This document shows positions 33,429 to 39,730 of a stretch of DNA of 64,000 nucleotides, one piece after another; position 1 is the first letter of the stretch; every line of letters starts with the position of its first letter. The stretch spans positions 155,117 to 219,116 of the forward strand of contig NHBG02000020.1 of the NCBI GenBank assembly GCA_002167855.2, read 5' to 3'. The notes under the pieces were generated by a model. That model was not told where the DNA came from. It saw only the letters and a program-made list of their open reading frames with translations, and did no database searches. The DNA comes from Gammaproteobacteria bacterium TMED1 (lineage in GTDB: Bacteria; Pseudomonadota; Gammaproteobacteria; Pseudomonadales; Azotimanducaceae). The translations under genes were made by a program, and so were the position numbers.

Positions 33429-34415
33429 TTAATCAATGCTTTTACCTAAAGCTCGAGCTTCTGCCTCATAGGGCGCATAAGAATTCTTCAAGACAGCAGA
33501 ATTTAATATACACTCTGCAACGAGATCTTTTCCGTCAAAGATAGATGTTCGCAGCCAATGCGACTCTACTCTTCTACTCTCAGAAACAGCAATGACCTCT
33601 CTTTCCAAACGATATGGTTGATTTACGAACAGCGGTCCTTTTATCAGTTTGATCTCTTGGTCCGCGAACAATCCCACTGCAGGACCCTTTACCGGTATTT
33701 CATTTCGACGAGAAGTATAATGAGTCAACACACTTATCATCTCTATGGGTATTATTGCTCGACCCCATGGAGAAGCATCGGCATCGCTGTACCAATCGCA
33801 ATTTTCAGTGATGGACTGAAGCTTTTGGTTTAAAGAAAACGGGTACATATCACCCATAACCTGATCAAACCCCATTACAACTGGATCTTCTTCTACAATC
33901 TTTTGCCCCACCTTAACATCGGCATGAATAATCAAGTTTTCAACTGGTCTAAGCTTCGCTAATCGAACGTCGAGTTCAGAATCTGGGTATTTAGGGCCGA
34001 TACTCGCTGTGCCTTCTAAGACCGGCGTCCCATCCCGCTTTTCTGCCCATATCTTACAAATTGCTTCACCCGGACAAACGAAAGCGCGAACTTCCTCACC
34101 TTCAACGACCATATTCTGATAGTGAGCACTTATGCAGCCTCGCTCAAACCAGACATTACCGAAAACCTCATATAGTAACGGTACAAACTGACTAAAATGA
34201 GTAGGCCCCTCAATTGGCGCACCACGAAGTCCCAGGTCCTTTGCCATGACATCATCGTGAACAGAAAGATGCCCCTCGTAAACTTGTTCCGCCAGCATTT
34301 GCCGAGGGTGCCGGAAAGCTCCACAAAGAAAAGACTTTTGAGTAAATGGGGTCATATCAATTTTTTCATCTCCACGAAGATCAGAAAAATACCATAGGCA
34401 ATGCTTCAGAGCCAT
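33429..34415 (-). CDS. hotdog-fold (MaoC-like) protein
   Basis: VHDDVMAKDLGLRGAPIEGPTHFSQFVPLLYEVFG resembles MaoC/FAS1-type dehydratase N-terminal domains; precise function unclear. Confidence 0.55.
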   Translation of the reverse strand: MALKHCLWYFSDLRGDEKIDMTPFTQKSFLCGAFRHPRQMLAEQVYEGHLSVHDDVMAKDLGLRGAPIEGPTHFSQFVPLLYEVFGNVWFERGCISAHYQNMVVEGEEVRAFVCPGEAICKIWAEKRDGTPVLEGTASIGPKYPDSELDVRLAKLRPVENLIIHADVKVGQKIVEEDPVVMGFDQVMGDMYPFSLNQKLQSITENCDWYSDADASPWGRAIIPIEMISVLTHYTSRRNEIPVKGPAVGLFADQEIKLIKGPLFVNQPYRLEREVIAVSESRRVESHWLRTSIFDGKDLVAECILNSAVLKNSYAPYEAEARALGKSID

Positions 34416-36958: not shown

Positions 36959-37732
36959 ATGGGAGGCACCGAGGCCACAAGGTATGAGATTAAAAATGGA
37001 GCAGCTTGGATAACGCTCGACCGCCCAGAAAATCGAAATGCACTGTCTGCTGTCCTTGTAACCGAGCTCTATGATCATTTAGTCAAATCTAACGAAAATG
37101 ATGAGGTGCGCTGCATCGTACTTACTGGAACAGATCCAGCTTTTTGCGCAGGGGCTGACCTAAAAAATCCACCAGGATCAGAAATCACAGGCGGAAGGAG
37201 CATACCCTATCCAGAGGTACTCAGCTATATCATCAATAGCGATAAACCAGTTATCGCCGCGGTGAACGGGGCGGCATTTGCAGGAGGGCTAGGACTAATC
37301 GGTGCAGCGGATATAGTCATCATTGCGGAAGAAACCATTTGCAGTTTTAGCGAAGTTAGAATTGGAGTGATCCCCGCAAATATTTCTGTCGTATGTCTTC
37401 CGAAACTCGGAATACACCACGGTATGAAATTAATGCTAACCGGGGAGCGGTTCACTGGTAGCCGAGCGGTGGAGGTAGGTCTGGCGCATCGAGCCGTGCC
37501 TCGCAATGCTCTTCACGCTGCAGTGCAAGAGGAAGTGGATATGATAAATCTCGGAGGCCCCAATGCAATAATCGAAACTAAGAAGTTAGTGCGTAGGAAG
37601 GCAAAAGCATCATTAGAAGAGGATTTTGAGGAGTGCGCAGAGTGGAGTTTAAGGATGTTCCAATCTATCGAGGGCGCGGAAGGCATGGCTGCTTTCCGGG
37701 AAAAGCGCAAAGCTTCTTGGGTTCAAGAGTAA
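36959..37732 (+). CDS. enoyl-CoA hydratase/isomerase family protein
   Basis: AAWITLDRPENRNALSAVLVTELYDHL; GTDPAFCAGADLK; KPVIAAVNGAAFAGGLGLIGAADIVI. Confidence 0.95.
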   Translation: MGGTEATRYEIKNGAAWITLDRPENRNALSAVLVTELYDHLVKSNENDEVRCIVLTGTDPAFCAGADLKNPPGSEITGGRSIPYPEVLSYIINSDKPVIAAVNGAAFAGGLGLIGAADIVIIAEETICSFSEVRIGVIPANISVVCLPKLGIHHGMKLMLTGERFTGSRAVEVGLAHRAVPRNALHAAVQEEVDMINLGGPNAIIETKKLVRRKAKASLEEDFEECAEWSLRMFQSIEGAEGMAAFREKRKASWVQE

Positions 37733-37760: not shown

Positions 37761-38249
37761 TTGCCTCGTTACAGTCGTATAGAAATTAGAAAACAAGCGC
37801 TCAACTTTTCCGTGGGGCACTTTACCATTTTCAGTGAAAAGGAACGTGAGAACCTTCACGGACACAACTTTCAGGTCGAATGCGAGATAACCGCGCCTGT
37901 GGGCGAAGACGGACTTGTATTCGATTACGGAATCATTAAGAAGATTTTAAGGGAACTATGCGATGAACTCGATGAGCACGTTATTCTACCCTCTAAATCT
38001 CCTCATCTTAGATTAGAAAAACAGGGGGAATATACTGCAGCGATCTTTCATAATGAACGACTGCTATTCCTTGAAAAGGATTTAATCATCCTACCGATCG
38101 CCAATACTACTGTGGAGGAGTTTTCGTATTACTTTTTAAATTTATTGACTGACCGCAGGGAATTAAGCAATAAAGGAATTATTGAGATTACGGTGAAGGT
38201 ATCATCAAGTCCAGGGCAGAGCGGTTGCGCCACATGGAAACTAGCATGA
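37761..38249 (+). CDS. 6-pyruvoyl-tetrahydropterin synthase family protein (PTPS/QueD-like), catalytic Cys replaced
   Basis: SVGHFTIFSEKERENLHGHNFQVECEI: zinc His motif HGH with ExxHGH instead of CxxxHGH. TTG start inferred. Confidence 0.85.
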   Translation: MPRYSRIEIRKQALNFSVGHFTIFSEKERENLHGHNFQVECEITAPVGEDGLVFDYGIIKKILRELCDELDEHVILPSKSPHLRLEKQGEYTAAIFHNERLLFLEKDLIILPIANTTVEEFSYYFLNLLTDRRELSNKGIIEITVKVSSSPGQSGCATWKLA

Positions 38250-38947
38250 GGACTCTCGTGATCACAGGCGCCAGCAAGGGTATTGGTTTAGCAACCGCAA
38301 GCCTATTCTGTGATGCCGGATACGACGTATTTAATTTTTCACGCACGAAATGTCCAGACTCAAGAGTAATTAGCTATGCCATTGACCTAGGTGATTCAGA
38401 AGCCGAAGAGCACATAAGAGAAAGTCTCGACGAGACAGTCGAAGAAGAAACTGAAGTCTGTCTCGTTCATAACGCGGCAGCAATGGTTGTAGATAATGCC
38501 CGAGAGGCTAATCCAGATGTACTTTCTAAGGTGTTAAGAATAAACGTAATCGCGCCAGTAATTTTCAATCAGCATCTGATTAAGAAAATGAAGCCGGGTT
38601 CTTCGATTATATATATTGGGTCAACGCTATCAGAAAAAGGGGTACCCAATTCTTTTAGCTATGTCACGAGCAAGCATGCAGTGCTAGGATTGACGAGATC
38701 AACCTGCCAAGATTTGGTGGGGATGGAGATCCATACATGTTGTGTTTGCCCAGGGTTCACCGATACGGAAATGCTTAGAGCCCACGTCTCTAATGATAAA
38801 GAAATTCTTTCCAGTTTATCTTCTCTGTCTACATTTGGACGCTTAATTGATCCCAAAGAAATCGCAGATACGGTTCTCTTTGCCGCCAAAAACCCAGTAT
38901 TAAACGGTGCAATAATGCACGCTAATCTTGGACAAATTGAGTCATAA
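38246..38947 (+). CDS. short-chain dehydrogenase/reductase (sepiapterin reductase/FolM-like context)
   Basis: MRTLVITGASKGIGLATASLF; LVHNAAAMV; SFSYVTSKHAVLG; ATGA overlap with the PTPS stop codon. Confidence 0.9.
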   Translation: MRTLVITGASKGIGLATASLFCDAGYDVFNFSRTKCPDSRVISYAIDLGDSEAEEHIRESLDETVEEETEVCLVHNAAAMVVDNAREANPDVLSKVLRINVIAPVIFNQHLIKKMKPGSSIIYIGSTLSEKGVPNSFSYVTSKHAVLGLTRSTCQDLVGMEIHTCCVCPGFTDTEMLRAHVSNDKEILSSLSSLSTFGRLIDPKEIADTVLFAAKNPVLNGAIMHANLGQIES

Positions 38948-38971
38948 ATAAGGCAGCAGGGGACAAATTTC

Positions 38972-39730
38972 TTGGAAATTACTGAAGAAATAAGAGAAAG
39001 AAGGGAAAGAGTGTTTCTCGTATTAGCCGGCCTTTTCTTGTGCGCTATGACAATGTTAAATATTTTGGGGATAACCCGATTTGTGCAACTTGGACCAATG
39101 AGTCTGGCAATAGGAGTACTACCTTATCCTTTAACTTTTCTATGCACGGACTTGATCAGTGAAATTTACGGTAGAGCTCGTGCGAATTTCTTAGTGACGG
39201 TAGGGTTATTTCTTAACGGTTTCATTATCGCAACACTGTGGATTGCAAATAAAGTACCCTCAGTAGCTGAACAGACTCAACCACCTTGGCAAGTAATTGA
39301 ATTGGCTGAAGCCATAGCGCTTCCCACTGGAGCAAGTGTAGAGGGCTCTGTGGAACTATTCACGCTTATTTATGCAACAACTTCGGGAGCAGTGCTCGCA
39401 TCAATGATGGCTTACCTAGCAGCACAATATTGCGATGTTTATATGTTTCACTTTTGGAAAAAGTTAACGAAAGGGAAACATCTTTGGCTAAGGAACAACG
39501 GCAGCACAATAGTTAGTCAAGGGGTCGATTCCTTTATGGTAATTACAGTCACTTTCGGAGCACAATTTTTAGCAGGCGCTATTAGTGCCAGCGCGATGCT
39601 TGTACTGATGGCCCACAACTACCTGTTCAAACTTTGCGTTGCTCTAGCAGACACGCCTTTGTTTTATATGGGTGTATATTATCTGAAGCGGTATCTCAAG
39701 ATAACAGATAGCGATTTGAACGCAACCTAG
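38972..39730 (+). CDS. yhhQ: YhhQ-family (queuosine precursor/VUT-type) transporter
   Basis: LFLCAMTMLNILGITRFVQLGPMSLAIGVLPYPLTFLCTDLISEIYGRARANFLV typical of the YhhQ family. Confidence 0.9.
   Translation: MEITEEIRERRERVFLVLAGLFLCAMTMLNILGITRFVQLGPMSLAIGVLPYPLTFLCTDLISEIYGRARANFLVTVGLFLNGFIIATLWIANKVPSVAEQTQPPWQVIELAEAIALPTGASVEGSVELFTLIYATTSGAVLASMMAYLAAQYCDVYMFHFWKKLTKGKHLWLRNNGSTIVSQGVDSFMVITVTFGAQFLAGAISASAMLVLMAHNYLFKLCVALADTPLFYMGVYYLKRYLKITDSDLNAT

Follow-up and report, generated by a model that had tools for sequence, protein, structure and literature searches.

A COG0720 protein without the active-site Cys, its SDR partner and a YhhQ-type transporter: a possible pterin side-chain route in Gammaproteobacteria and Myxococcota

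The source genome of Gammaproteobacteria bacterium TMED1 (G000; 2.16 Mb in 25 contigs, 96.5% complete) carries, within the 64,000 nucleotides analysed here (the window), three genes that lie head to tail on the + strand at 37761-39730. They encode a PTPS-family protein, an SDR oxidoreductase and a COG1738/YhhQ protein. The features of the locus are as follows:

36959-37732, + strand: crotonase-family protein upstream of the PTPS gene (PF00378)
37761-38249, + strand: PTPS-family (COG0720) ORF of 162 aa with a TTG start and ExxHGH, without the active-site Cys (PF01242)
37845-37865, + strand: codons R29-E30-N-L-H33-G-H35; R29, E30, H33 and H35 are invariant in 101 loci
37971-37976, + strand: codons D71-E72, Asp-Glu where other COG0720 proteins have Asp-His; E72 in 96/101 loci
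38205-38207, + strand: codon S149, at the place of the presumed pterin-anchoring Glu; Ser in 98/101 loci
38246-38249, + strand: ATGA overlap of the PTPS stop and the SDR start, read from the sequence
38246-38947, + strand: partner SDR oxidoreductase of 233 aa with TGASKGIG and YVTSK motifs (PF13561/PF00106)
38972-39730, + strand: COG1738/YhhQ-type queuosine precursor transporter of 252 aa (PF02592, 157.5 bits; TIGR00697)

The outline drawn by the first-pass annotation holds. PF01242 recognises the PTPS ORF with 58 bits (cut-off 22.4), and the ATG of the SDR (38246-38248) runs into the TGA that closes the PTPS ORF (38247-38249), which confirms the translational coupling proposed for these two genes. 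The product encoded 3′ of the SDR is indeed of the YhhQ type by PF02592 and by the NCBIfam model TIGR00697 ‘queuosine precursor transporter’ (120.6 bits, cut-off 50.95). The crotonase neighbour is conserved within the genus only and probably lies outside the cassette. A 328-aa ORF on the − strand (window 33429-34415) is conserved in close relatives and has no Pfam match. No preQ1 or other riboswitch was detected before the cassette: Rfam gave no hit there in the window at E values up to 1, and none in 12 related loci at the gathering threshold. A plasmid collection contained no match to the locus.

The PTPS-family protein had first drawn attention through its motif SEKERENLHGH, in which the Cys of CxxxHGH is missing, and this reading is borne out: Arg29 (codon 37845-37847) occupies the Cys place, Glu30 (codon 37848-37850) is the Glu of ExxHGH, and H33 and H35 are two zinc His. 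Across the alignment of 101 loci, the zinc ligands H20, H33 and H35 are invariant, as are R29, E30, N115, E119 and Q153. At the position of E72, Plasmodium PTPS-III and all QueD proteins aligned have His; at that of S149, Plasmodium (VSESP) and QueD (ETCT) have a Glu, taken here to be the pterin-ring anchor of PTPS and other T-fold enzymes. The subgroup signature accordingly combines an invariant RExLHGHN with a near-invariant DE and S-[SG]-P-G-Q. A compensating Cys elsewhere, named earlier as a possible refutation, did not emerge: only C67 is well conserved (near-invariant), and it sets nothing apart, being shared with the Plasmodium enzymes. The AlphaFold2 (AF2) model reaches a pLDDT of 95.5 as a monomer, while the active site of the PTPS fold lies between subunits. 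Judged by these residues, the subfamily keeps the predicted zinc site and a catalytic-type Glu; the Cys, the Asp-His histidine and the Glu that usually anchors the pterin are all missing.

Among solved proteins, Plasmodium PTPS-III enzymes come closest, both by sequence search (E 6.8e-22) and by Foldseek on the AF2 model (top matches at TM 0.89-0.91; E 5e-18 at TM 0.89), with QueD and mammalian PTPS far behind in either search. In a tree, the family falls on the Plasmodium side, away from QueD (support 95/88); the family itself is weakly supported (64/71), and the branches are long. In the Plasmodium motif FRETLHGH, Glu38 takes the place of the catalytic Cys as base on dihydroneopterin triphosphate, and the enzyme yields 6-hydroxymethyl-dihydropterin besides its normal product (PMC2229834). 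With these enzymes (PDB 1y13, 2a0s), the bacterial protein shares fold, length, inserts, RExLHGHN, the three zinc His and the Glu replacing Cys. The rest of the Plasmodium active site is absent—the Asp-His pair of LDHH and the Glu of VSESP give way to D71-E72 in LDE and S149 in VSSSP or VSSGP—and on the bacterial side an obligate SDR partner and a FolB are present. The PTPS-III pattern noted at first sight therefore stands as far as nearest sequence and fold are concerned, but not at these two additional active-site positions.

Other members of COG0720 fit less well. QueD/PTPS-I (6-carboxytetrahydropterin synthase) has the fold and the zinc site in common with our protein, whereas the QueD signature (CxxxHGH, Asp-His, anchor Glu) is not found, TIGR03367 scores 51.7 bits, under its cut-off of 89.25, and the gene is kept in QueC-less genomes. 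The PTPS-II/BH4 synthase motif, CxxxxxHGH (PMC5041015), is missing as well, no Cys occurring at positions 26-32 before HGH in the 101 loci. The FGPAQ signature of PTPS-IV (PMC5445326), a group linked to FolE2 and F420 (PMC5445326, PMC5041015), is itself absent, though the S-[SG]-P-G-Q with which the family ends is similar to it; going by these signatures, taken without alignment, PTPS-IV may be another group that lacks the anchor Glu. PTPS-IV and PTPS-V are uncharacterised or unpublished subgroups, and PTPS-IV was compared by its published signature. The sequence comparisons, made with Plasmodium PTPS-III, QueD and mammalian PTPS, set the protein apart within COG0720 as a member of its own subfamily, akin to PTPS-III.

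This subfamily is far from rare. It occurs in 63/73 searched genomes of the window's family as well as in scattered families of the order, and the locus extends across several gammaproteobacterial lineages and into the Myxococcota. Named relatives are mostly MAGs of marine Gammaproteobacteria/Pseudomonadales, with isolates from Zhongshania, Aestuariicella, Thiobaca, Marichromatium, Pseudoxanthomonas and Nannocystis. The same SDR is linked to the PTPS gene in 64 of the 80 distinct named loci (in 50 of these directly behind it in the same orientation), and YhhQ in 41 of the 80, always together with the SDR; recurring in several lineages, such linkage is more than chance. Moreover, the gene order is not fixed (PTPS-SDR-YhhQ, PTPS-YhhQ-SDR or divergent), and this speaks for function over simple inheritance of an order. 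A common third partner was discarded, as the remaining flanks vary (crotonase, DUF924, TPR protein, RND pump, PrkA, MFS) and were judged local. In purple sulfur Chromatiaceae (L075, L083, L130 and others), a second SDR replaces YhhQ behind PTPS-SDR, these second SDRs being 70-76% identical to one another. A single case of SDR-YhhQ kept without PTPS was found, in the single-contig genome G044 (L204).

The SDR is the obligate partner of the PTPS protein by co-occurrence: an ortholog (at least 45% identity) was found in 10/10 PTPS carriers against 1/25 non-carriers (Fisher p = 6e-8, kinship ignored), and in one of the carriers (G101) it is present even though unlinked. Pteridine reductases are recognised by TGX3RXG plus YX3K (PMC13259868). 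The first-pass suggestion of a pteridine reductase is not upheld here: Y139/K143 supply YX3K, but TGASKGIG is TGX3GXG, with Gly at the Arg place. No pteridine-reductase model appears among the best 25 models for the protein, and its top database matches are generic reductases. It is not the sole dihydrofolate reductase either, FolA being found in 37/38 genomes. The cassette shares with FolX-FolM (the monapterin route) and PTR1/PruA a two-step logic in which a change to the dihydropterin side chain is followed by an SDR; it differs in that FolX belongs to the FolB family, unlike PTPS, and in that its SDR is without the TGX3RXG of the PTR1, PruA and FolM pteridine reductases.

Gene neighbourhoods in distant lineages provide a further clue. 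Nannocystis has folE-queD-PTPS-SDR in a single string, its queD being canonical, and Thermomonas (Xanthomonadaceae) has tsaD-folB-another SDR-PTPS-methyltransferase with ATGA overlaps; folB sits at a similar place in Pseudoxanthomonas and one more genome. At two further loci, a pteridine reductase lies divergent to a methyltransferase gene, which is followed by PTPS, and NF006598 scores these reductases at 358 and 365 bits (cut-off 288). That PTPS has folE-queD, folB or a genuine pteridine reductase as neighbours in these distant relatives points to a pterin branch, with the proviso that these neighbours come from few lineages and that most loci share just SDR and YhhQ. Together with the queuosine-type transporter, they lend support to the link to both pterin and queuosine metabolism that had been proposed for the cassette. 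Another YhhQ-pterin neighbourhood, this one without PTPS, lies at a contig start in G076 (L206): behind a different YhhQ come an ORF with no annotation (HAD-like on visual inspection only), folB and an SDR whose best-matching model, below cut-off, is that of the dihydropteridine/dihydrofolate reductase TmpR.

As for the transporter, it shares with E. coli YhhQ (COG1738/QPTR) a TIGR00697 score over cut-off and a host with a salvage genotype, whereas the E. coli-type model PRK11212 gives only 33.8 bits (cut-off 252); it is probably a queuosine-precursor importer. The source genome has Tgt, QueA and QueF, and QueC is absent (best PF06508 match 28 bits, against mostly 230-280 for true QueC in relatives), absence calls in this study being made from MAGs with single HMM searches. 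A close relative, G005, likewise has Tgt and QueF without QueC, and because of this genotype both most likely import preQ0. G005 and G013 have no COG1738 protein besides the YhhQ of the cassette; the source genome has a second one. A queuosine-salvage locus, another of the initial suggestions, thus fits the transporter and leaves the PTPS protein unexplained.

Canonical QueD was found in 0/37 genomes of the window's family, where QueC is usually present and in several cases has QueE beside it. Adjacent QueC and QueE without a detectable canonical QueD are seen in G009, G011, G012, G017, G008, G016 and G076 (L171-L177), in which another enzyme may supply 6-carboxy-tetrahydropterin; the last of these, G076 (99% complete), is devoid of COG0720 proteins, so another QueD substitute probably exists. 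In G078, G081 and G077 (L181, L182 and L183), a tandem PTPS protein of ~290 aa, often the sole COG0720 protein where QueC is present, has Asp-His in its first half and NCQR[IM][AI]HGH plus FEG in its second, so that a single active site seems divided between the two domains.

Which reaction might the cassette serve? Were the protein a working PTPS-III, it would convert dihydroneopterin triphosphate to 6-hydroxymethyl-dihydropterin for folate and bypass FolB. ExxHGH and the Plasmodium-like fold speak for this, as do four PTPS carriers that gave no FolB match (G001, G013, G019 and G021, of which G013 and G019 are QueC-less and have the cassette); in some such lineages, a FolB role may apply. We nevertheless consider it unlikely. 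The expectation for PTPS-III is occurrence where FolB is missing, but FolB is found in most PTPS-carrying relatives and is intact in the source genome, as one complete 125-codon gene behind tsaD and overlapping it. This leaves the FolB replacement initially envisaged unsupported in the source genome; FolE and FolA are present as well, which disposes of a missing FolE. With FolB still in the genome, the cassette is unneeded as a substitute for the ordinary folate enzyme. In Xanthomonadaceae, folB and PTPS even share a gene string; in addition, the Asp-His pair and the anchor Glu are unconserved, and a folate bypass would not need the obligate SDR. A far smaller chance still goes to a tetrahydropterin cofactor for phenylalanine hydroxylase, with PTPS and SDR doing the work of FolX and FolM: the pair does follow the logic of tetrahydrobiopterin synthesis, and the single PF02152 protein (FolB) in the source genome and most relatives leaves no FolX, but PF00351 is absent from the source genome and all six congeners, all of them PTPS carriers, which contradicts a cofactor for an aromatic-amino-acid hydroxylase throughout the genus.

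On the queuosine side, a replacement of QueD making 6-carboxy-tetrahydropterin for preQ0 synthesis would account for PTPS being the sole COG0720 protein of QueC-carrying (often QueE-carrying) genomes in the window's family. We regard it as quite unlikely, given the missing Cys, His and anchor Glu, the coexistence of PTPS with canonical QueD in Nannocystis, G075, G082, G084 and G089, and the QueD substitute hinted at by the QueC-QueE genome without COG0720. PTPS is also retained in four QueC-less genomes (G000, G005, G013 and G019), and a comparison of two of these shows that purifying selection on the gene is strong (pN 0.09; synonymous sites saturated). Equally improbable, in our estimate, is salvage or remodelling of a 7-deazaguanine (queuine or a derivative), whereby YhhQ would import the base, the PTPS-fold protein hold and cleave or isomerise it, and the SDR oxidise or reduce its side chain. 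The constant company of SDR with YhhQ, and Tgt and QueF without QueC in G000, G005 and G013, fit this; many PTPS-SDR loci without YhhQ (Chromatiaceae, Zhongshania, Nannocystis), QueC in most carriers, pterin genes as neighbours elsewhere and the missing anchor Glu that reads a guanine-type edge do not. Since PTPS persists without QueC and without an aromatic-amino-acid hydroxylase, neither preQ0 synthesis nor that cofactor is its common job: the cassette is independent of FolB loss, QueC and aromatic hydroxylases.

The explanation we favour, tentatively and as somewhat short of probable, is that the PTPS subfamily and its dedicated SDR form an uncharacterised pterin side-chain route, with YhhQ importing queuosine precursors alongside. 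Acting on a pteridine of the dihydroneopterin type, or on a near relative, the zinc-Glu site would open, isomerise or shorten the hydroxylated side chain; reduction of the carbonyl so formed would then fall to the SDR and give a reduced pterin that is neither the folate intermediate nor preQ0. YhhQ would bring in preQ0/preQ1, and its attachment to the pair might reflect a pteridine/deazaguanine pool or regulation that the two routes share. The Plasmodium-like fold, the invariant Glu30 with three zinc His, SDR co-occurrence, pterin neighbours and purifying selection all count for this route; the narrow range of lineages with such neighbours and the generic matches of the SDR count against it. 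Moreover, the absent anchor Glu means that a pterin substrate is not assured, and the genus is devoid of aromatic-amino-acid hydroxylases, which leaves a reduced pterin without an identified known consumer. With rather more reserve, one can imagine that a PTPS protein that keeps zinc and a Glu base but none of the three classic catalytic/binding residues, paired with a dedicated SDR, acts on a substrate outside the known pterin intermediates and gives an undescribed reduced pteridine or remodelled deazaguanine bases.

COG0720 is a textbook example of over-annotated paralogs. Under automatic annotation the subgroup would pass as QueD or PTPS, under the ExxHGH rule as a FolB bypass; the data oppose both here, a warning that ExxHGH by itself is insufficient to identify PTPS-III function. 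Widespread, sharply delimited and tied to an obligate SDR partner, the subgroup is to be told from QueD and PTPS-III. If the more reserved reading, with a substrate outside the known pterin intermediates, is true, it would represent a new enzymatic route in many marine and phototrophic Proteobacteria and Myxococcota. The subgroup also raises a testable question: what PTPS and SDR jointly produce, and why a queuosine-precursor importer sits alongside.
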